This document shows positions 8,194 to 17,124 of a DNA stretch of 64,000 bases, in pieces. The stretch covers positions 124,001 through 188,000 of the forward strand of contig NZ_SJOH01000004.1 of NCBI RefSeq assembly GCF_004331285.1, in the 5' to 3' direction. The position numbers and the translations under genes were made by a program. The notes below the pieces were generated by a model. It was not told the DNA's origin. It did no database searches and saw nothing but the letters and a program-made list of their open reading frames with translations. Within the stretch, counting starts at the first letter, position 1. The number at the start of each line of letters is the position of its first letter. The DNA is from Acinetobacter sp. ANC 3781 (GTDB taxonomy: Bacteria; Pseudomonadota; Gammaproteobacteria; Pseudomonadales; Moraxellaceae).

Positions 8194-8284
8194 GCCTGTC
8201 GTTTCGTTACTTTATTTTAAACATCACCTGTTAATGTTTAAAAATAGACTACACTAGAAAAATAATAAATTTGTTGTCAACCAA

Positions 8285-8330
8285 ACCATTATTCCTAACG
8301 TTATATATGTATGAAAATAGGAATAATGGT
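8285..8330 (+). promoter_or_regulatory. 13-bp perfect inverted repeat just upstream of the sigma-factor start
   Basis: ACCATTATTCCTA at 8285-8297 is the exact reverse complement of TAGGAATAATGGT at 8318-8330, separated by 20 AT-rich bases. The right arm ends 9 nt before the ATG at 8340 and overlaps the GGTGGGTG that would be the ribosome site. It could be a DNA operator for a dimeric regulator or an RNA hairpin masking the ribosome site. Sequence alone does not decide. Confidence 0.6.
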
Positions 8331-8339
8331 GGGTGTCCA

Positions 8340-8975
8340 ATGACAGGATTTTCCATCTCTATGGATTCAGCACCAAAACAGTCTCAAGCGGAAAATTTGA
8401 GTATTCTGAAGAGTACGGCTGAACAGCGCCTAAAAATTTTTATGCAGGATGTGACAGGGCGTGCCTTGGTGATGATGGAAAGTGCGACTCAAGGTCAACA
8501 AGGTATTGCGATGGATTTGGTGCAAGAAGCTTTTATTTCCTTGCACAAAGCATATGCCGAAAAGCCGACTGATGAATGGTATCCCCTGTTTTACACCATT
8601 TTGAACCATAAATTACAAGACTGGCGTAGAAAAGAAGTTCGGCGAGCACAACCTTTTTCATTTTTTAAAAAGGTGAGTCTCGATGACGATGATATTGAAC
8701 TGAATGATATTGTTGATGAAAATACTCCCAGCCCATTCGATTTTCTTGATCAAGCCGTAACGGCCGAAGAAATACAGCAAGCTATTTCTCAGCTTCCCGT
8801 TCGACAGCAACAGGCTTTTATGCTGCGTGCTTGGGAGGGCTTTGATACACACACTACTGCGCAAATCATGGAATGCAGTGAAGGCAGTGTAAAAACGCAT
8901 TATCACCGTGCTATTCAAGGTCTTCGGAACTCGTTGGCACATTTGAATCCATACTCTGGAGGGTCATCCGAATGA
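8340..8975 (+). CDS. ECF-like RNA polymerase sigma-70 family factor
   Basis: A 211-residue protein with a sigma region 2 (about residues 35-95, with D-L-V-Q-E-A-F and the W-R-R-K-E basic end) and a sigma region 4 helix-turn-helix (about residues 148-200, L-P-V-R-Q-Q-Q-A-F ... G-S-V-K-T-H-Y-H-R-A). Regions 1 and 3 are absent, as in group 4 (ECF) factors. The ATG at 8340 is chosen because upstream in-frame starts (TTG 8271, ATG 8307) lie before or within the inverted repeat loop. It overlaps the next gene by 4 nt (ATGA). That gene encodes a small membrane protein, the usual place of an anti-sigma factor. Confidence 0.85.
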   Translation: MTGFSISMDSAPKQSQAENLSILKSTAEQRLKIFMQDVTGRALVMMESATQGQQGIAMDLVQEAFISLHKAYAEKPTDEWYPLFYTILNHKLQDWRRKEVRRAQPFSFFKKVSLDDDDIELNDIVDENTPSPFDFLDQAVTAEEIQQAISQLPVRQQQAFMLRAWEGFDTHTTAQIMECSEGSVKTHYHRAIQGLRNSLAHLNPYSGGSSE

Positions 8976-9292
8976 AACAAGATGATTACTTAAAAAAAGT
9001 TACTTCCAAACTCGATGGACTCGCACAACACCATAAAGATAAAGCTGTTGTGATGAACCATGTTATTGAAGAAATTCAAGAACGGGAAACCTCCCGTTAC
9101 GGACTTTGGAAAATGTCAGGATTTGCACTTGCTGCTGCAATTGCAGGTTTTGTAGTATTTCCAAATTCTATTGATATAGCTGAAAAGCCTCAGAATCAAG
9201 TTGTAGTTACTCCAAAATTATCACCACAAATGGTTGAAGATTTAGAGATGTTAATGGTTTTAGGCGAGGATAAAGTTCCCCATGGCAGCTAA
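8972..9292 (+). CDS. Small membrane protein, candidate anti-sigma factor
   Basis: A 106-residue protein with a charged N-terminal half (about residues 1-45), one membrane helix (about 47-66, W-K-M-S-G-F-A-L-A-A-A-I-A-G) and a periplasmic tail of about 40 residues. This is the layout of anti-sigma factors, and the gene overlaps the sigma gene by 4 nt, so the role is inferred from topology and position. The zinc-type H-x3-C-x2-C anti-sigma motif is absent. It overlaps the following DUF3106 gene by 11 nt. Confidence 0.65.
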   Translation: MKQDDYLKKVTSKLDGLAQHHKDKAVVMNHVIEEIQERETSRYGLWKMSGFALAAAIAGFVVFPNSIDIAEKPQNQVVVTPKLSPQMVEDLEMLMVLGEDKVPHGS

Positions 9293-9686
9293 AAGATTAG
9301 CATTTGCTTTTTGTGCACTCGGATTTCTACAAACCAGTTTCGCTGGTTTTGAACGTTTTTGGATTTTTTCTAAAGATGCAGACACTCAATTGGCAGAAAC
9401 CTGGGAAACCCTGTCAGATGCTGAACAGCGTGCACTTATCCAGCGCTATCAATCGCTGAAAGAACTACCTGACTCACAAGGCACCGCTTTACACCAACGT
9501 ATGGATTGGTTTACCCAGCTGCCAGAGCAAGAAAAGCAAAAAATGCGAGAAACCTGGCAAAAAATGAGTAGCCAAGAGCGTAGAGATTTAGGCACACGCA
9601 TGCAAAAGGCAACCCCTGAAGAAAGACCTGCTATTCGAGATGAATACATCAGTAAATATTTACAACCTCAATCTGCAAGTCACTAA
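9282..9686 (+). CDS. Exported DUF3106-type protein
   Basis: A 134-residue protein with a signal peptide (about residues 1-21, ending S-F-A-G) and a mature part of repeated E/Q-W/M-x-x-L/M-x-x-x-E-Q type helices (A-E-T-W-E-T-L-S-D-A-E-Q-R ... R-E-T-W-Q-K-M-S-S-Q-E-R). This is the DUF3106 pattern, related in look to Spy/CpxP-like periplasmic helix proteins. It overlaps the membrane-protein gene upstream. In this operon it may be a periplasmic sensor or effector of the sigma system (inference). A terminator follows. Confidence 0.78.
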   Translation: MAAKRLAFAFCALGFLQTSFAGFERFWIFSKDADTQLAETWETLSDAEQRALIQRYQSLKELPDSQGTALHQRMDWFTQLPEQEKQKMRETWQKMSSQERRDLGTRMQKATPEERPAIRDEYISKYLQPQSASH

Positions 9687-10059: not shown

Positions 10060-10711
10060 AGAATTTTTTCATGAGGTTATGAGTTAGGGGATTTCAGAGC
10101 CAACCGCCTTAAGACTTTTACGTCATGTAGAAGATAATTTGATTCATTTGAATCTCTTTTAATTTACCGAAGAGTTTGTCTGTTATACACTTTCAACTAG
10201 AAAATGAGTGCTAAGGTGTTGCTTGGAATATTGTGATCGTGGATGCCATAGAAATTCATATCTAACAGCCTAAAAAATAGAAAAAAAGCTATAGCGGTAA
10301 AAAAGACAGGTATCTTTTAAGGGCAGACAATAATTCAGTATAAAACTCAGCAAATACTGAGTTTATGTAGCAGTTGTGGTGTGGTGCATGATTTCGAGCT
10401 ATTCAAACGTAATTTACAGCAGATTCTTTTCGGAGATTTTATTCTTGCAGATAAAGGCTATCAGGAAATTTATAATTTTTATTCCAATAACCAGTTGCCG
10501 TTCAAAGCCAAGAAACGTTGTATATTGAATCCTGTACTAAAACACTATAATCAGAACATCAATAAAACAAGAATACAGATTGAGCAATTATTTGGTAGTT
10601 TAAAAACCTTCAAAATCCTTTGCACAACATTATTGAAATAGAGGCAAAAGACTTGGTTTGAGATTCAATTTAATTGCTGGAATCCATAACTTGGAACTGA
10701 GCAAAAGATGA
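10060..10711 (+). pseudogene. Decayed IS5-type (DDE) transposase remnant
   Basis: Three-frame reading recovers a once-continuous transposase. It runs from an N-terminal E-L-G-I-S-E-P-T-A-L-R-L-L-R-H-V-E helix near 10083-10130, through V-I-V-D-A-x-E-I-H-I and Y-S-G-K-K near 10235-10300, to an intact piece V-H-D-F-E-L-F-K ... D-K-G-Y-Q ... E-Q-L-F-G-S-L-K-T-F (10384-10640) and an end R-G-K-R-L-G-L-R-F-N-L-I-A-G-I stopping at TGA 10709-10711. Several stops (for example after E-I-H-I) and frameshifts break it, so it is inactive. No clear terminal inverted repeats or target duplication were found. The stretch 9729-10059 upstream holds no other gene and includes an eight-G run at 10050-10057. Confidence 0.8.
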
Positions 10712-10828: not shown

Positions 10829-13237
10829 CTATTTCTTTCTACGACCTCTATACAAGCCAAGTCCTAGTAAGCCTATAACACTATATATTCCAAGACTTCC
10901 ACCACCGCCTGATGCTTGATTATTTGTATTTTTCTCAGTATTGAGTAAGTTAATTTCCGCATTATTTGATGGTATACCCTCTGCATCATAAATCTTATAT
11001 TTAAGCTCATAGTCAAACTGACTAAAATTATTTTTCACTTCAAAATAAAGCTGCCCGCCATAACAGGTATCTTTGATATCGTTACCTGGACATGGGCCTT
11101 TCCGATCCGCATTTATAATTAAACCAGCAGGAATGGTTTCTATCCTTATCGGCAGCTCCACCCCCTGTGCATCCTTGTAAAATACACTTTTATTAGTTGT
11201 TAAATGTGTTGTCGGTCCATCCCCATCATCACTATCATTAACTAACGGATTAACACTTAGCGCCGAATTTGAGCTTGGAGTAATGGAATAGGTATCATCT
11301 TTTGCAATAGGAGCAATATTGATAAAATTTGCGGTTATAAGTCCAGTAGATGTGATTGAACTGCCTAGTTTAGAAGCAATACTATATGAACAGTAAGATT
11401 GACCATCTACCACTTTACCATCTGTACGATAAATGATGATTTGTTTTAGATCTTCCTTCCATTCACACTTAAAGTTAGGATCAGCAGCTCCTACAAACTC
11501 GTACCCCCCATTTTTTTCAACAAAATTACCTATACCATAGTTATAGGTCGTTATCGTATAGTTATCGGTATTTAGCGCTTTAAGTTGAATTGCACCACTC
11601 ACATCCGAAGCAGGCTCTTCGCTTGGTAAAGTATTTAAGAAAGGATCAAAATATATGGCACGATACTGCACATATTGTTCAGTAAATTGTTTTAAGGCTT
11701 CATATTTTTTTAAATCTTCTTGATCTTTTGTTTTAAGCTCTTTATCTGCTTCAGGATCTGCAAGATATCCTTTAAATTTGTCAATTTGCGCTTGATACTC
11801 GGCAATAAGAGTAGTGTAAGAACGATTTGTTAATGTCGTTGTATCCGCTGCAGTTAAACGCATACGTTCAATCGAGCCAATATCACAGGTGTTGTTCAGA
11901 TCTGGATCTAATATATGGGTGGTATCTGTAATGCGCGCCAGATTACGTTGATCGGTGCGACTACATTCCGACTCACCCGCATTTACCAAGTCAGTAGCAT
12001 TCTGATTATCGATTGGATAATACATTGGTAAAAATAAATTATATTTAGATGGAGGTTGATAGGGTGACAAAACGGTCAACATATCGGTTGAACTTAAATT
12101 GATATTGGTATTTAAAGTAGTATTCCCAGCCGTAGACGTTGCTGGTAAATCACACTGCCCTATTCCAGAATTAAGCTGTAAAGCATTTTGATAGGCACCA
12201 ATAACACGTTTAGTGTCTGTCAAATCGCCATTTTTTAAAGCATAACGGCAAGACTTACCGCTGTTATAAGCCAATACATTGAAATTTAAAGAAATACTTC
12301 CAGTATCATCATAATACAAAGTACTATGCGCATTATTTTCAACAATAGTATTACTGAGCAGAGACAATTCGGAACCTGGACTTAAACGATGATCGCCAGT
12401 ATTTATCATCCGGAAAATGCTGCCATTACTGCTATTCGCTGTATTTTTTGCAATTGTGCTTGCAGTGATCTGTACCTTTGAGCTACCACATAAATCTATT
12501 GCACTCTGGCTAGTTGCTGAACCATTTTCCACAATACTGCTGTTATTAATACTAATAAGCGCATTTGTTTTACCCAGATTTACCATACAGTCCATCGCAA
12601 TAACACTACCTTCATTTGCGTTATTGCCTTGTATTAGGGTATTGCTTAAAGTAATTTGATTTTCTGACTTGTGTGCTACGAAATAAATTGCCCCACCATC
12701 TTTAGCTGAGACTGAGTTTAAAATAGCACTGTTGACCATATTTAAAGAACCGCCAATCAACAATGCTCCACCCACTTCGCTTGAAGCCCCGCCATCTAAG
12801 GTAACATTGTATAAAGACAGTGTCGGCGATTGGTCAACGGTATTAAAAATTCGTGATGCACCTTTTGTGGTAATTTTAGTCTTTAAGTTTTGGCGTGCCG
12901 GATATTCATTGGTTAAGACATCCTTGGTTGAATAATCAACTGGCAATTTCCCATAAATATAAATTTCCGATTCAGGCGTTAATTCACTATTAAGGATATA
13001 TTCCCCTTCCTCAAGCTGAATATAATCTTTCTGCCCCCTCTCAGGATTACCTGCAGCACAACCACCATAAGCCTTATTTAAACTGGCTGCTTTAATTGCT
13101 TCACGCAATGAACATTTATTATTGGAATTATCTTCATCATCGAAGGTATTAACATAAATTGTTTTGTGTTCTGCTGCCATGAGTGACATGGCAGACAATA
13201 CCATGGCCGTGAGCAATCCCTTTTTATAATTTTTCAT
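10829..13237 (-). CDS. Exported CSLREA-domain protein with GlyGly-CTERM-like tail (rhombotarget type), second of a pair
   Basis: An 802-residue protein with a signal peptide (about 1-22) followed at once by a CSLREA domain (V-N-T-F-D-D-E ... C-S-L-R-E-A-I near residue 42). A long region then resembles parallel beta-helix folds (about 90-330, repeated N-x-x-I/V patterns). A Lys/Glu-rich helical segment lies near 470-520 and a cadherin/Ig-like part near 660-760 (N-P-L-V-N-D-S-D-D). The C-terminus has the sorting layout G-G-G-G-S-L-G, a hydrophobic helix and a basic end R-G-R-R-K-K. That is the GlyGly-CTERM pattern cut by rhombosortases. AAGGA precedes the ATG, and only 13 nt separate it from the upstream paralogue. 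Known Acinetobacter relatives are called rhombotarget proteins. The function of the mature protein is unknown, and no rhombosortase gene is in the window. Confidence 0.8.
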   Translation of the reverse strand: MKNYKKGLLTAMVLSAMSLMAAEHKTIYVNTFDDEDNSNNKCSLREAIKAASLNKAYGGCAAGNPERGQKDYIQLEEGEYILNSELTPESEIYIYGKLPVDYSTKDVLTNEYPARQNLKTKITTKGASRIFNTVDQSPTLSLYNVTLDGGASSEVGGALLIGGSLNMVNSAILNSVSAKDGGAIYFVAHKSENQITLSNTLIQGNNANEGSVIAMDCMVNLGKTNALISINNSSIVENGSATSQSAIDLCGSSKVQITASTIAKNTANSSNGSIFRMINTGDHRLSPGSELSLLSNTIVENNAHSTLYYDDTGSISLNFNVLAYNSGKSCRYALKNGDLTDTKRVIGAYQNALQLNSGIGQCDLPATSTAGNTTLNTNINLSSTDMLTVLSPYQPPSKYNLFLPMYYPIDNQNATDLVNAGESECSRTDQRNLARITDTTHILDPDLNNTCDIGSIERMRLTAADTTTLTNRSYTTLIAEYQAQIDKFKGYLADPEADKELKTKDQEDLKKYEALKQFTEQYVQYRAIYFDPFLNTLPSEEPASDVSGAIQLKALNTDNYTITTYNYGIGNFVEKNGGYEFVGAADPNFKCEWKEDLKQIIIYRTDGKVVDGQSYCSYSIASKLGSSITSTGLITANFINIAPIAKDDTYSITPSSNSALSVNPLVNDSDDGDGPTTHLTTNKSVFYKDAQGVELPIRIETIPAGLIINADRKGPCPGNDIKDTCYGGQLYFEVKNNFSQFDYELKYKIYDAEGIPSNNAEINLLNTEKNTNNQASGGGGSLGIYSVIGLLGLGLYRGRRKK

Positions 13238-13250
13238 AGATCGTCCTTAA

Positions 13251-15065
13251 TTATTTTTTATATCGGCGTAATCCAACAAGACCCAATATGCCAAATAGAC
13301 TGAAGAATCCAACAGAGCCACCGGAAGTGTTCACGCTCTTACTTTCCATAGTATTTTGAGGTGCCTGTACAACGTTTACATTCACTTCCATATAGGGCTG
13401 GGTTTTGTTAAAACGCGTAGATGACGTGACTAAACGAATTTTAAAAATATCTGCACCATGCCAGTCTCCTTGAGGTGTATAAATCAAGGTTCCATCTTCA
13501 TTAATAGTCAGCTTACCTTTGGAAGGTGTTTGGGTCTGAACCACTTGCAAACAACCTGCCTGCCATGCTTCACTTGCAGGCTTTTTACCCAGTATGGCCT
13601 CGCATTCCTCTTTTGGCACTAAATCACTATCACTTAGATGCTCAACTACAGAAATTTGAGCAGTTTGACCTATAAGCAAATCTTCCCCAACAAGTCCAGT
13701 TGTGCTTGGCACAACAATCTCAACTGCACCACGATCACATAAATCATTATCATCATCACGTACATTGTCACGTTGATCTATACGTTCACATCCCATTACT
13801 TTTGATGCTGAATCTACCTGAAACTTGCCTTTGTTTACAATTAATGATTCAGCCAGTTTTTTATAGCTCATCAAAATACGCGGCCGAAAATATCCTAAAA
13901 AATCCTTCTCTGACTGGAAATATGGGCACAAGAGCGAATTCGAATCTTCACTCAAGGTTTTACATTTTCCATCTAATGTATCACCTGCAATAAGCTGCTG
14001 GCCTGGCCAGATATCATTCGGATATAAACTGTCACCTGTCGTACAACTACTTGCTACAATATTGTTTTGGTTATAAGTCTTATCAGTATTTACAAAGGAA
14101 CAGTTATCATCCTGAGTGATAGGATAGGGATTGCTCATAATAATACTATTGGCAAGATAAGCTTTTTGGGCAGGCGCATTAAATTTAATTCCAGAAGTAT
14201 TACCTATAACTGTCAGATTATTTAAGCCTATACCGTCTCGGACATTAATTACCCAGCCTTTATTTTTGTAAAAGGTACTATTGGCAATTTTATAGGACAT
14301 ATAGGGAAAGGCGGCTAATAATGTACTGTCTAAATCGGCAGACGAATAAATATTTGCAGCGTTTGCTAAATTTGTCTCATTTTCTCGAAAAACTGAGTTT
14401 GATACTCTAAATTGTGGAACCTGACTGTAAATAATGGCGCCTTCATCAGCTTTATTGTTTTCAATTAGGCTATATTTAATTTCCACCAGACTACGTAATA
14501 TTGATTCTGGTTCAGTCGGTACACCTACATTGTAAATGGCACCCCCTTGCGTCGCGATACCATCTGTCAATTTCACATGATCTAAAACTAAATATTCATT
14601 GTTGAAAATTAAACCGCCTTGAGTAGCACAAACACTTTGACCACATCCCTGCAAATTCACTTCACTGATATTAACTTGAACTAGGGCTTTTTTTGCATCA
14701 TCAATATAAAAGATATTATCCTTACCCATCATTTTAATAATGGCATTATTTAAACCAGGCTTAAGGTCATTTGAAAAGCTGTTATCGTAGACCGTTTTTA
14801 AAGTAAGCGCTGCCGTGATTTTAATTTGGCTATCTAACTTATAGGTGGTTTTTTTTTCAAGCGTAATGATTGAACTTGAACCTTTACCTCCACAGCCCAA
14901 ATGCCCTTCTTCAGGCAATCCTAAATTAACGTATTCTATTGCTTCACGTAATGAGCATTCCTTGTCATCTTTTTTAGCATCTTCAGTCGTATTTACGATA
15001 ATATCCGCACTATAAGCATGTCCTGCAAAGCATAACACCCCTATACCTATGCTCCGTTTGAGCAT
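13251..15065 (-). CDS. Exported CSLREA-domain protein with GlyGly-CTERM-like tail, first of a pair
   Basis: A 604-residue protein from the ATG at 15065, chosen because AAGGAGAAAGG lies just before it and the N-terminus is then a proper signal peptide (about 1-20, ending H-A-Y-S-A). The longer frame to 15125 has no such support. A CSLREA motif (C-S-L-R-E-A-I) lies near residue 37, then a beta-helix-like region (about 70-340) and an Ig/cadherin-like domain (about 450-570, with G-K-L-T-I-N-E-D-G-T). The tail is G-G-S-V-G, a hydrophobic helix and R-R-Y-K-K, again GlyGly-CTERM-like. It shares architecture with the next gene but diverges in sequence, which suggests an old duplication. A GTTGCA/TGCAAC inverted repeat at 15105-15123 in its leader may be regulatory. 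Confidence 0.8.
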   Translation of the reverse strand: MLKRSIGIGVLCFAGHAYSADIIVNTTEDAKKDDKECSLREAIEYVNLGLPEEGHLGCGGKGSSSIITLEKKTTYKLDSQIKITAALTLKTVYDNSFSNDLKPGLNNAIIKMMGKDNIFYIDDAKKALVQVNISEVNLQGCGQSVCATQGGLIFNNEYLVLDHVKLTDGIATQGGAIYNVGVPTEPESILRSLVEIKYSLIENNKADEGAIIYSQVPQFRVSNSVFRENETNLANAANIYSSADLDSTLLAAFPYMSYKIANSTFYKNKGWVINVRDGIGLNNLTVIGNTSGIKFNAPAQKAYLANSIIMSNPYPITQDDNCSFVNTDKTYNQNNIVASSCTTGDSLYPNDIWPGQQLIAGDTLDGKCKTLSEDSNSLLCPYFQSEKDFLGYFRPRILMSYKKLAESLIVNKGKFQVDSASKVMGCERIDQRDNVRDDDNDLCDRGAVEIVVPSTTGLVGEDLLIGQTAQISVVEHLSDSDLVPKEECEAILGKKPASEAWQAGCLQVVQTQTPSKGKLTINEDGTLIYTPQGDWHGADIFKIRLVTSSTRFNKTQPYMEVNVNVVQAPQNTMESKSVNTSGGSVGFFSLFGILGLVGLRRYKK

Positions 15066-15183
15066 ACCTTTCTCCTTGTATTCTTCTAATATTTTTATTC
15101 TATCGTTGCACATTCCCTGCAACATTGAACTATTTTGCTGTACTTTGTCACAGCTTTAATAATTTCTCAAGATTTTTTATTAT

Positions 15184-15888
15184 TTACCGATATTCATCAA
15201 TTAATGCATAAATTTGTCTTAAATTGGCATGACTGATTTTTGTTTTTTCACCTTTTAACAGCTGAATCAACTGTTCTAAAGTTTGTAATAAAATAGAGGT
15301 TTGATGCGGTCCATGCAGCAACAAATAATCTATGATTTGCTGATCCATATGAATTCCCCGACGTGTTAATACCGATGTTACTAGCGCATAACGATCCGCA
15401 TATAAACTTCCTGTCGGCACTTTAACGCTCACCGCCTGAGTCAAACGTGACTGTAAATCGGGAAGTTCAAGTTTCAATTCAATGGGGGCAACACGAGAAG
15501 AGAAAACTAACTGTCCTCCACCTTCATTATTATAATTAATTAAATGAAATACTGCTTTTTGCCAATGTGGAACACCGCTAATGGCTTCGATATCATCTAA
15601 TGCCACAAGGTCATATTGATCTAATGATGTAATCGCTTCAGTTGGTGCATCGAGCAACTCCAGTAATGAAACTTGAATTGCAGATTTACCGACTTCTAAA
15701 TAAGAATCGCAAATAGCAGAAAGTAAATGGCTTTTACCTGAACCAGCTCCACCATATATATAAAAGCGATTTATTAAACCAGCATGAAGCTGCCGCACTG
15801 CATCAATGACATGCCCCCAACTTGGACCCGAAAAATCACTAATTCGGGCATCCAGTTGAGGTTCTATATCTAATTGCAGTTGACGCAT
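15184..15888 (-). CDS. hda: Hda, DnaA-related regulatory inactivator of replication initiation
   Basis: A 234-residue AAA+ protein similar to DnaA domain III but without the DNA-binding domain. An N-terminal Q-L-Q-L-D-I segment (residues 3-8) fits the beta-clamp-binding motif of Hda. Walker A is G-G-A-G-S-G-K-S-H (about 46-54), Walker B is L-V-A-L-D-D-I-E (about 94-101), and an S-R-V-A-P sensor segment lies near 131. Bound to the sliding clamp, Hda stimulates ATP hydrolysis by DnaA and prevents re-initiation. It sits 15 nt after perM on the same strand, the perM-hda order also seen in Pseudomonas. Confidence 0.9.
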   Translation of the reverse strand: MRQLQLDIEPQLDARISDFSGPSWGHVIDAVRQLHAGLINRFYIYGGAGSGKSHLLSAICDSYLEVGKSAIQVSLLELLDAPTEAITSLDQYDLVALDDIEAISGVPHWQKAVFHLINYNNEGGGQLVFSSRVAPIELKLELPDLQSRLTQAVSVKVPTGSLYADRYALVTSVLTRRGIHMDQQIIDYLLLHGPHQTSILLQTLEQLIQLLKGEKTKISHANLRQIYALIDEYR

Positions 15889-15903: not shown

Positions 15904-17124
15904 TTAGGGTTCTTTATTGTCTATCAATTCAATCTTACTCGATTTTTCAGCATCTTGCAGAATTTTTGATTCTGTATTTCTCAATTCGATATCTACATCT
16001 ACTTGATCCGATTCAATTGAAATTGATCCTGCTCCCGGCTCTTGTATGATTACAGAGGAGTGCCTATATATACGGCTCTTCTCGTAACAATCTCGCGCAT
16101 GCCGTAGCAGCACTACAATAACTGCCGCAACCGGTAAAGCAATCAGCATTCCCAGAAAACCGGCAAGTTGAGCGCCGGCCAATACAGCAAATACCACGGC
16201 TACAGGAGATAAGCCAATTTTATCTCCGAGCAAGAAAGGTTGAAGAATATAACCCTCAACGGCTTGGCCAATCATAAATACAACCAGCACCAATGCTAAA
16301 TGCATCCAATCAATACCAAACTGGAATAGTGTTGCAATCACAGCTGCAATAATTCCCACTGCAAAGCCCAAATAGGGAATAATACTGGCCAGACCCGCAA
16401 CCATTCCAATAATCAGACCGACCTCAAGACCAATGACTTGTAAGCCGACTGCATAGACCGTACCCAGCAAGAACATCACCAAAAACTGACCTTTAACAAA
16501 GGCACCTAAGACTTGGTGACATTCACCGACAATGTGTAAAGTACTTTTCTCATAAGGACGAGGGATTAAACGGCGGAAACTGTCGAGCATACGATCCCAA
16601 TCCAACAGGAAATAGAATGCAATAATTGGAATCAGAACCACCGTTCCGCCAATTTGTATGAAATTCAAACCCGATTGCGCGACTTTCAATACCATTGCCT
16701 GAATACTATCGGCACTATAATTGGTCTGAATATACTCCATGACCACAGTCGACATTTGCTGCGTATCGATTTCCATCTGCTCGACGCTAAAAGTTTGCGA
16801 CACCCAAGGTAAAAAGGTGTAATTTAGCCAATGAATTCCTGCTGGAATACTGTCTCGCGCATACATCAGCTGTTGCCAAACCAGGGGAACCAAATACCAC
16901 ATCGCCAAGGTGAGAACCACACCAATACCAATAAACACAAGACTAATAGCCAACCAACGCGGCAAGCCGATCTTATGAAGCTTCTCTACCAACGGGCTAA
17001 ATAAATAAGCCACCAAAAATGCTGCTATAAAAGGCAATACCACAGGTTTAAGCAAATACAAAACCCAAAGGATTAATGCAATTCCTGAGAGTATAAAAAT
17101 GCGACGTAAGGTACGATCCACCAT
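15904..17124 (-). CDS. perM: PerM/AI-2E-family transporter
   Basis: A 406-residue inner-membrane protein of the AI-2E transporter (UPF0118) family. It has a pair of N-terminal helices (about 8-55), a helix at about 62-85, a soluble stretch, and about five helices between 150 and 345. It ends in a hydrophilic acidic tail of about 50 residues. Family members move small solutes or ions; only some carry AI-2, so the substrate here is unknown. The gene diverges from purM and runs into hda, an order shared with Pseudomonas. Confidence 0.85.
   Translation of the reverse strand: MVDRTLRRIFILSGIALILWVLYLLKPVVLPFIAAFLVAYLFSPLVEKLHKIGLPRWLAISLVFIGIGVVLTLAMWYLVPLVWQQLMYARDSIPAGIHWLNYTFLPWVSQTFSVEQMEIDTQQMSTVVMEYIQTNYSADSIQAMVLKVAQSGLNFIQIGGTVVLIPIIAFYFLLDWDRMLDSFRRLIPRPYEKSTLHIVGECHQVLGAFVKGQFLVMFLLGTVYAVGLQVIGLEVGLIIGMVAGLASIIPYLGFAVGIIAAVIATLFQFGIDWMHLALVLVVFMIGQAVEGYILQPFLLGDKIGLSPVAVVFAVLAGAQLAGFLGMLIALPVAAVIVVLLRHARDCYEKSRIYRHSSVIIQEPGAGSISIESDQVDVDIELRNTESKILQDAEKSSKIELIDNKEP

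Follow-up and report, generated by a model that had tools for sequence, protein, structure and literature searches.

In a 64,000-nucleotide stretch of Acinetobacter sp. ANC 3781 (contig NZ_SJOH01000004.1, positions 124,001 to 188,000; referred to here as the window), rbtA and the gene directly downstream of it encode two large exported proteins with GlyGly-CTERM-type tails, and the data presented in this study show that the two genes behave as one conserved unit, which is new here. The upstream gene (13251..15065, reverse strand, as for all features of the pair and its upstream neighbors) encodes rhombotarget A, or RbtA, of 604 amino acids (aa), and the downstream gene (10829..13237) encodes a diverged RbtA paralogue of 802 aa, called the partner below. 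The explanation favored here, at a probability of about 0.6, is that RbtA and the partner form a two-part rhombosortase target that is made together, cut, exported by the type II system and jointly active at the surface, where their role would most likely be that of a non-enzymatic adhesin or scaffold. The window pair is an ordinary and real instance of a known target type, with one named member and one unnamed paralogue. GlyGly-CTERM pairs in Acinetobacter and their type II-dependent secretion have already been reported in the publications cited below.

Conserved order and fused forms

The RbtA-like gene comes first and the partner second, on the same strand, in all 16 two-gene loci of the family outside Acinetobacter, and by the listed starts of the open reading frames (ORFs) the genes overlap by 4 base pairs (bp) in half of them (8/16). 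The RbtA-like part leads in every family locus that was fetched, and an hda match was found in 17 of those 19 loci, the misses being L111 and L123, the latter a short contig. Both copies are retained and diverged at every fetched pair locus. Both proteins also evolve fast, with mean distances of 0.90 for RbtA and 1.00 for the partner versus 0.20 for marker genes, and across 25 genomes their distances are correlated (r 0.93, or 0.87 when three linked marker genes are regressed out), a value that none of 2000 permutations reached.

Some relatives have a single gene in place of two. RbtA and partner form a single uninterrupted frame of 1409-1745 aa in 11 genomes belonging to three groups. All three matching genomes of one genus of the family, g3, are fused (1484-1509 aa; L105-L107), and the g3 records, which are metagenome-assembled genomes of Proteobacteria, show 61-84% identity to the first. 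A scan across 293 genomes of the order returned 20 matches, and among these the one-frame form, with two CSLREA/beta-helix halves, was identified in seven genomes of family f43 and one of family f26 (1409-1745 aa). The f43 and f26 fused genes adjoin an hda match in 8/8 cases, purM is also present in six of the eight stretches, and a DUF2066 gene lies in between at both loci where this was tested. These surroundings make the f43 and f26 genes positional counterparts of the pair.

The joint between the halves has a recurring layout. A Gly-rich stretch, then a hydrophobic segment and then several Arg or Lys residues close the first half; another hydrophobic segment comes directly after, terminates in an Ala-type site and runs into the CSLREA region of the second half. 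Judged by eye, GG is present at 8 of the 11 joints. Both hydrophobic segments are above threshold in 8/11, with one only in L106, L107 and L151, and no in-frame stop was found around any of the 11 joints. A tree of 68 halves places the first halves with RbtA and the second halves with the partner, which takes 2 changes where shuffling gives 23 on average. The halves from g3 nest with those of g4 and g6, where the pair consists of two overlapping genes, and stand apart from f43. Branch support is weak for the f43 first halves and for the f26 rows. On these sequences the simplest history would be that the fusion arose twice; one old fusion followed by repeated splitting would be less simple.

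These fused forms raise a further idea, which is put forward tentatively and at slightly less than even odds. In at least two lineages RbtA and partner may be made by one ribosome as a sorting-target polyprotein whose middle would be a rhombosortase signal joined to a signal peptide, the joint being cut out by rhombosortase and signal peptidase, both inner-membrane proteases, to give two lipid-anchored surface proteins in an exact 1:1 ratio. By descent, the tandem pair of Acinetobacter would then represent this obligate surface complex encoded by two genes. The basic stretch that separates the two hydrophobic segments of a fused protein would be cytoplasmic, with rhombosortase cutting before it and signal peptidase after it. 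A rhombosortase above cut-off is present in all eight fused f43/f26 genomes and in one of the three fused g3 genomes.

Of the matches from the order-wide scan, L156-L167 were also considered as fused forms and rejected; they are single CSLREA/beta-helix proteins or other long repeats that are not hda-linked, and they are not among the 11. At 3422-6104 of L165 (genome G552) two proteins of 443 aa are encoded side by side that match partner/RbtA weakly and have choice-of-anchor-Q-like C-termini. With a lipobox-like N-terminus and no Gly tail, they may be a lipoprotein counterpart of such a pair.

The two proteins and their locus

A previous sequence-only reading described the window genes as encoding two large exported proteins that share a signal peptide, a CSLREA domain, a beta-helix-like region, an Ig-like part and a Gly-rich, hydrophobic and basic tail. 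Both ORFs are intact at that place, and each of these shared features was borne out. The present analysis goes beyond that description in that the upstream protein is the named and solved RbtA, with a reported type II link, and in that the genes are one conserved unit. RbtA scores 801.5 bits against TIGR04212, far above the 295-bit cut-off, and the match spans profile positions 1-605 of 605. Its beta-helix matches the solved structure 9cdu by sequence (phmmer E 2.7e-86), and its AlphaFold2 model (mean predicted local distance difference test score, pLDDT, 83.7; predicted template modeling score, pTM, 0.83) matches the same structure by fold (Foldseek E 3.6e-32). By score, sequence and fold it is thus the same protein as RbtA of TIGR04212 (A1S_2602 in A. 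baumannii ATCC 17978; PDB 9cdu and 9cdv), which has been described as a surface protein, crystallised as construct A20-I459 and used with designed binders (PMC12643943).

The partner scores 60.4 bits against TIGR04212, below the 295-bit cut-off, which makes it a paralogue and not RbtA itself. Profile searches, including Pfam, returned no named full-length family for it, and phmmer against solved sequences gave chance-like matches only (arcelin, E 0.00085; Cag5, E 0.071), which were rejected. Its AlphaFold2 model (mean pLDDT 85.8, pTM 0.80) superimposes on 9cdu with a Z of 36.0 and 2.4 Å over 363 residues, an RbtA-type beta-helix, so that the structure prediction of both proteins proposed in the sequence-only reading returned this fold in each. 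The proteins had also been called diverged, and profile-profile comparison gives 24% identity over 365 columns. The partner shares the layout of RbtA but exceeds it by about 200 aa and has in addition a helical hairpin and a further beta-sandwich. Two beta-sandwich regions in its model are weakly like cadherin and intimin-type domains (Z 7-8), and the Pfam matches for the Ig/cadherin-like part are weak in general, with only Big_9 in RbtA barely above cut-off (24.2 versus 23.6 bits). The Lys/Glu-rich helical spacer noted earlier for the partner fared less evenly. A two-helix hairpin is predicted at residues 474-521 (11675..11818; helices 474-493 and 499-521), but Lys/Glu richness is not a family trait, since the Lys plus Glu content of the segment is 22% here and 9-22% across 13 rows.

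At their N-termini the two proteins carry predicted signal peptides followed by the CSLREA domain. That of RbtA covers residues 1-19 (15009..15065), with a hydrophobic segment at 8-24, and the construct of the solved homologue starts at A20; that of the partner covers residues 1-21 (13175..13237), with a hydrophobic segment at 7-23 and the cleavage site placed by eye. The CSLREA domain (TIGR04214, CSLREA_Nterm; cut-off 25 bits) scores 38.2 bits at residues 22-47 of RbtA (14925..15002) and 44.9 bits at residues 27-51 of the partner (13085..13159). Twelve cysteines are conserved in the partner and ten in RbtA, which suggests that both proteins may contain disulphides.

The tails were assessed by a tripartite rule devised for this study, namely a Gly-rich stretch, a hydrophobic segment and a basic end. 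Of 222 window ORFs (stop-to-stop, at least 60 aa), exactly two have such a tail, and these are RbtA (residues 582-604, 13254..13322) and the partner (residues 777-802, 10832..10909), in agreement with a GlyGly-CTERM architecture. The pattern was found in 58/58 partner and 33/35 RbtA sequences fetched, sets in which a few genomes are included twice, and in none of 4,650 random internal ends. The GlyGly-CTERM model TIGR03501 also detects the tail of RbtA (17.0 bits, cut-off 15.5; residues 601-621 of the 624-aa ORF), with an E of only 0.0075 because the model is short. It makes no call on the tail of the partner at E values up to 1. A TIGR03501 scan of the whole genome gave no match, but this is uninformative because the controls were silent as well.

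The 13-bp gap between the genes (13238..13250) contains AAGGA, the likely ribosome-binding site of the partner, and because this short gap carries its own site the two genes probably lie in one operon. The rbtA frame is open from 15125, and the start at 15065 is preceded by AAGGAG within AAGGAGAAAGGT (15066..15077), the likely rbtA ribosome-binding site directly upstream. Scans for promoters and terminators gave 23 and 4 hits versus 29.5 and 5.0 in shuffled sequence, that is, at or under the shuffled level, and were not used. Upstream is the hda-like DnaA-family gene that marks the locus (15184..15888; Pfam Bac_DnaA, 43.9 bits), followed by its neighbor, an AI-2E family transporter (PerM-like) gene (15904..17124; Pfam PF01594, 198 bits). 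On the other side, window positions 8271-9686 hold consecutively a Sigma-70 region 4 (extracytoplasmic function-like) factor, a small membrane-type protein and a DUF3106 protein, a gene row that is kept on that side of the pair in wider Acinetobacter loci and at most empty sites. A short ORF just downstream of the partner (10381-10641) has matches to DDE transposase families (37 and 31 bits) and is likely an insertion-sequence remnant.

Rhombosortase and type II secretion

The window genome comprises 3.39 Mb in 40 contigs, with the pair on contig C34. The sequence-only reading held that the absence of any rhombosortase from the genome would refute its assignment of the tails, and one was found at C11:19074-19523, on another contig than the pair (TIGR03902, 148.7 bits versus a cut-off of 84). 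The type II system was searched via its secretin alone, and GspD is likewise encoded on another contig (C36; 539.2 bits versus 351.35). A second rhomboid in the genome (41.7 bits) is not counted as a rhombosortase because it is under the cut-off of 84 and GlpG models score similarly (40.9 versus 35.2 and 32.9 bits).

Partner and rhombosortase largely occur together. Among 119 genomes of the genus, 98 have both, 1 has the partner only, 2 have the rhombosortase only and 18 have neither; among 199 genomes of the family the corresponding numbers are 81, 3, 2 and 113. A genome with a partner match at E 3.6e-4 and no rhombosortase above cut-off (G198) was scored as partner-lacking, and none of these counts takes kinship into account. 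For the secretin in the genus, 98 genomes have it with the partner, 1 has the partner only, 8 have the secretin only and 12 have neither. The partner-bearing genome without a secretin above cut-off, G115, still has partner and rhombosortase; its rbtA (L065, 5224-8104) is broken into three reading-frame fragments, two of which are separated by about 1.1 kb of other sequence. Twelve genus genomes lack secretin, pair and rhombosortase above cut-off (G015, G019, G025, G031, G049, G054, G076, G091, G097, G098, G102 and G106), and many of them are small, at 1.9-3.2 Mb.

Where the partner is missing, the pair appears to be missing as a unit, because the hda and DUF3106 genes are 34-95 bp apart in 14 of the 18 partner-lacking Acinetobacter loci and no part of the pair remains between them. 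Loss of the pair is likelier than gain, since it sits at the same place in other genera. Replacement targets were sought in fetched stretches, and no tail-pattern ORF was found in the rhombosortase neighborhoods of G093 (L066), the window genome (L070), G075 (L073) and G036 (L074), or at the pair locus of G117 (L067), the scan covering these five stretches and not the rest of the genomes. Pair presence was also placed on a marker tree of three neighboring genes with 50 rows. It changes 8 times on this tree, 4 of them forced by well-supported branches. The outgroups form long branches and do not fall on one side of any branch, so the root is unsure.

A 2011 paper counted two GlyGly-CTERM proteins in each of five Acinetobacter genomes (PMC3237569). 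In A. nosocomialis M2 the adjacent M215_02250 and M215_02255 were described as a GlyGly-CTERM protein and a rhombosortase and showed a large change in the secretome of a gspD mutant (PMC4713064). However, in the window genome the rhombosortase is away from the pair (C11 versus C34), so the second member is probably the partner, mislabelled as a rhombosortase. A CSLREA protein also appeared in a gspD screen of strain UPAB1 (PMC9245377), and both this protein and the A. nosocomialis pair are probably members of the pair described here. RbtA and its neighbor were both present in vesicles of a lipooligosaccharide-deficient strain (PMC11395390), and a study of MacAB-TolC tabulates RbtA as increased in a biofilm proteome (PMC8792954). 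A1S_2601 and A1S_2602, which are adjacent, were named jointly as P.69 pertactin family members (PMC7667040); the pertactin label reflects a beta-helix resemblance that this pair shares, and the part available discusses no sorting tail, secretion or pairing. Within the literature searched, to which subscription papers and preprints did not belong, neither the pair as a unit nor the fused form is described in the parts available, and these give no function for RbtA.

Proposed working and alternative explanations

The proposed working of the pair follows VesB of Vibrio cholerae, which is cut at a Gly motif, receives a glycerophosphoethanolamine-type link and depends on type II secretion (PMC6219818; PMC13393428). 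The tripartite tail and the presence of rhombosortase and type II secretin in the same genome are shared with the VesB/RssP system. Unlike in that system, the targets here come as a tandem pair that looks obligate, and relatives carry the sorting signal mid-protein, with a signal-peptide-like segment after it. By analogy, the signal peptides would export RbtA and the partner, and a C-terminal helix would hold both in the inner membrane. Rhombosortase would cut at the Gly-rich motif and leave a lipid-linked C-terminus, and the type II system would carry the proteins, folded and with their disulphide bonds formed, to the surface of the cell. The two, made in similar amounts, would act jointly there as a beta-helix plus Ig-type adhesin or scaffold. 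The fusions and the co-inheritance point to this joint action. The adhesin or scaffold role is the weakest part of the explanation. A non-enzymatic role is favored, as neither family has a Lys or His in its beta-helix that is invariant or reaches 90% conservation (alignments A1, n=42, and A2, n=31); most of the conserved charged residues belong to the cap motifs CSLREA and DQR..CD.G.E.

Several observations weigh against this explanation. The partner is found without a rhombosortase above cut-off in one genus genome (G110, 64% complete) and in three family genomes (G125, 99% complete, G135 and G147), and a rhombosortase is found without the partner in G093 and G117 of the genus set and in G093 and G121 of the family set, G117 retaining a 114-residue rbtA remnant. 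After correction for kinship, only 4 independent pairs of rows rest on well-supported branches; in 2 of them the rhombosortase differs along with the RbtA-partner pair, and in the other 2 it does not differ. Co-loss is therefore not significant after this correction, and a sign test with 4 pairs cannot reach significance. The same test for the secretin gave, of 4, 1.4 changes in the same way, 0.1 in the other way and 2.5 without difference. The co-occurrence pattern is strong as a description and modest as independent evidence, because the counts ignore kinship and the independent pairs are few. The correlation of RbtA and partner distances needs no contact between the proteins, because adjacent genes share a recombination history. 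In two RbtA tails (L046 of G079 and L056 of G026) GS replaces GG, with the hydrophobic and basic parts kept, although both genomes encode a rhombosortase. Also, in its overall fold the beta-helix of the partner is similar to lyases of PL6 and PL9 and to alginate epimerases (Z 20-25).

RbtA and the partner could instead be independent surface proteins with separate functions, kept together by a shared transcript and a shared need for rhombosortase and type II secretion. The far divergence of the two (24% identity) and the extra domains of the partner would fit this, co-loss would result from loss of the sorting enzyme alone, and the kinship-corrected support on the marker tree is small. However, the fixed order across genera, the gene overlaps and the fact that three groups have in-frame fusions at this locus favor coupled production, and separate functions are considered fairly unlikely. 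It is less probable still that one or both proteins are polysaccharide-active enzymes, a lyase or an epimerase built on the beta-helix. The closest structures to the partner model after RbtA include the PL6 alginate lyase 7dmk (Z 25.2), the pectate lyase Pel9A 1ru4 (Z 23.9) and AlgE4 2pyg (Z 20.9), but beta-helix folds broadly match one another. PL6 enzymes use a Lys/Arg pair, and the beta-helix alignments described above contain no Lys or His conserved at 90%.

Two further alternatives concern the tails and the joint. The tails could be uncut membrane anchors, and the fused joint the hairpin anchor of a two-lobed inner-membrane protein. The parts of the literature available contain no cleavage data for Acinetobacter, GG is missing from 3/11 joints and 2/35 RbtA tails, and two of the three fused g3 genomes have no rhombosortase above cut-off even though they are 91-94% complete. 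Little credence is given to this, as the partner co-occurs with rhombosortase, 8/8 fused f43/f26 genomes have the enzyme above cut-off, and the secretin-dependent secretion of a GlyGly-CTERM pair (PMC4713064) and the presence of RbtA and its neighbor in outer membrane vesicles (PMC11395390) have been reported. It is also doubtful, if somewhat less so, that the fused genomes additionally make the second protein by internal initiation and so have no strict polyprotein. An ATG, GTG or TTG lies inside all 11 joints, and in L106 and L107 it is accompanied by a ribosome-site match of at least 4 bases. On the other hand, 9 of the 11 joints have no such match, the Gly-Gly codons GGA-GGT themselves mimic a ribosome site, and a ribosome entering at the first start meets no stop.

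The part of these results that is worth following is the conserved two-part unit together with the polyprotein form of its relatives. If it is true that RbtA acts only with its partner, deletions of single genes and binding assays with single proteins may mislead. With the fused forms, the action of rhombosortase at an internal site and the membrane topology of GlyGly-CTERM tails could be tested directly, and a bacterial polyprotein of this kind would be unusual.

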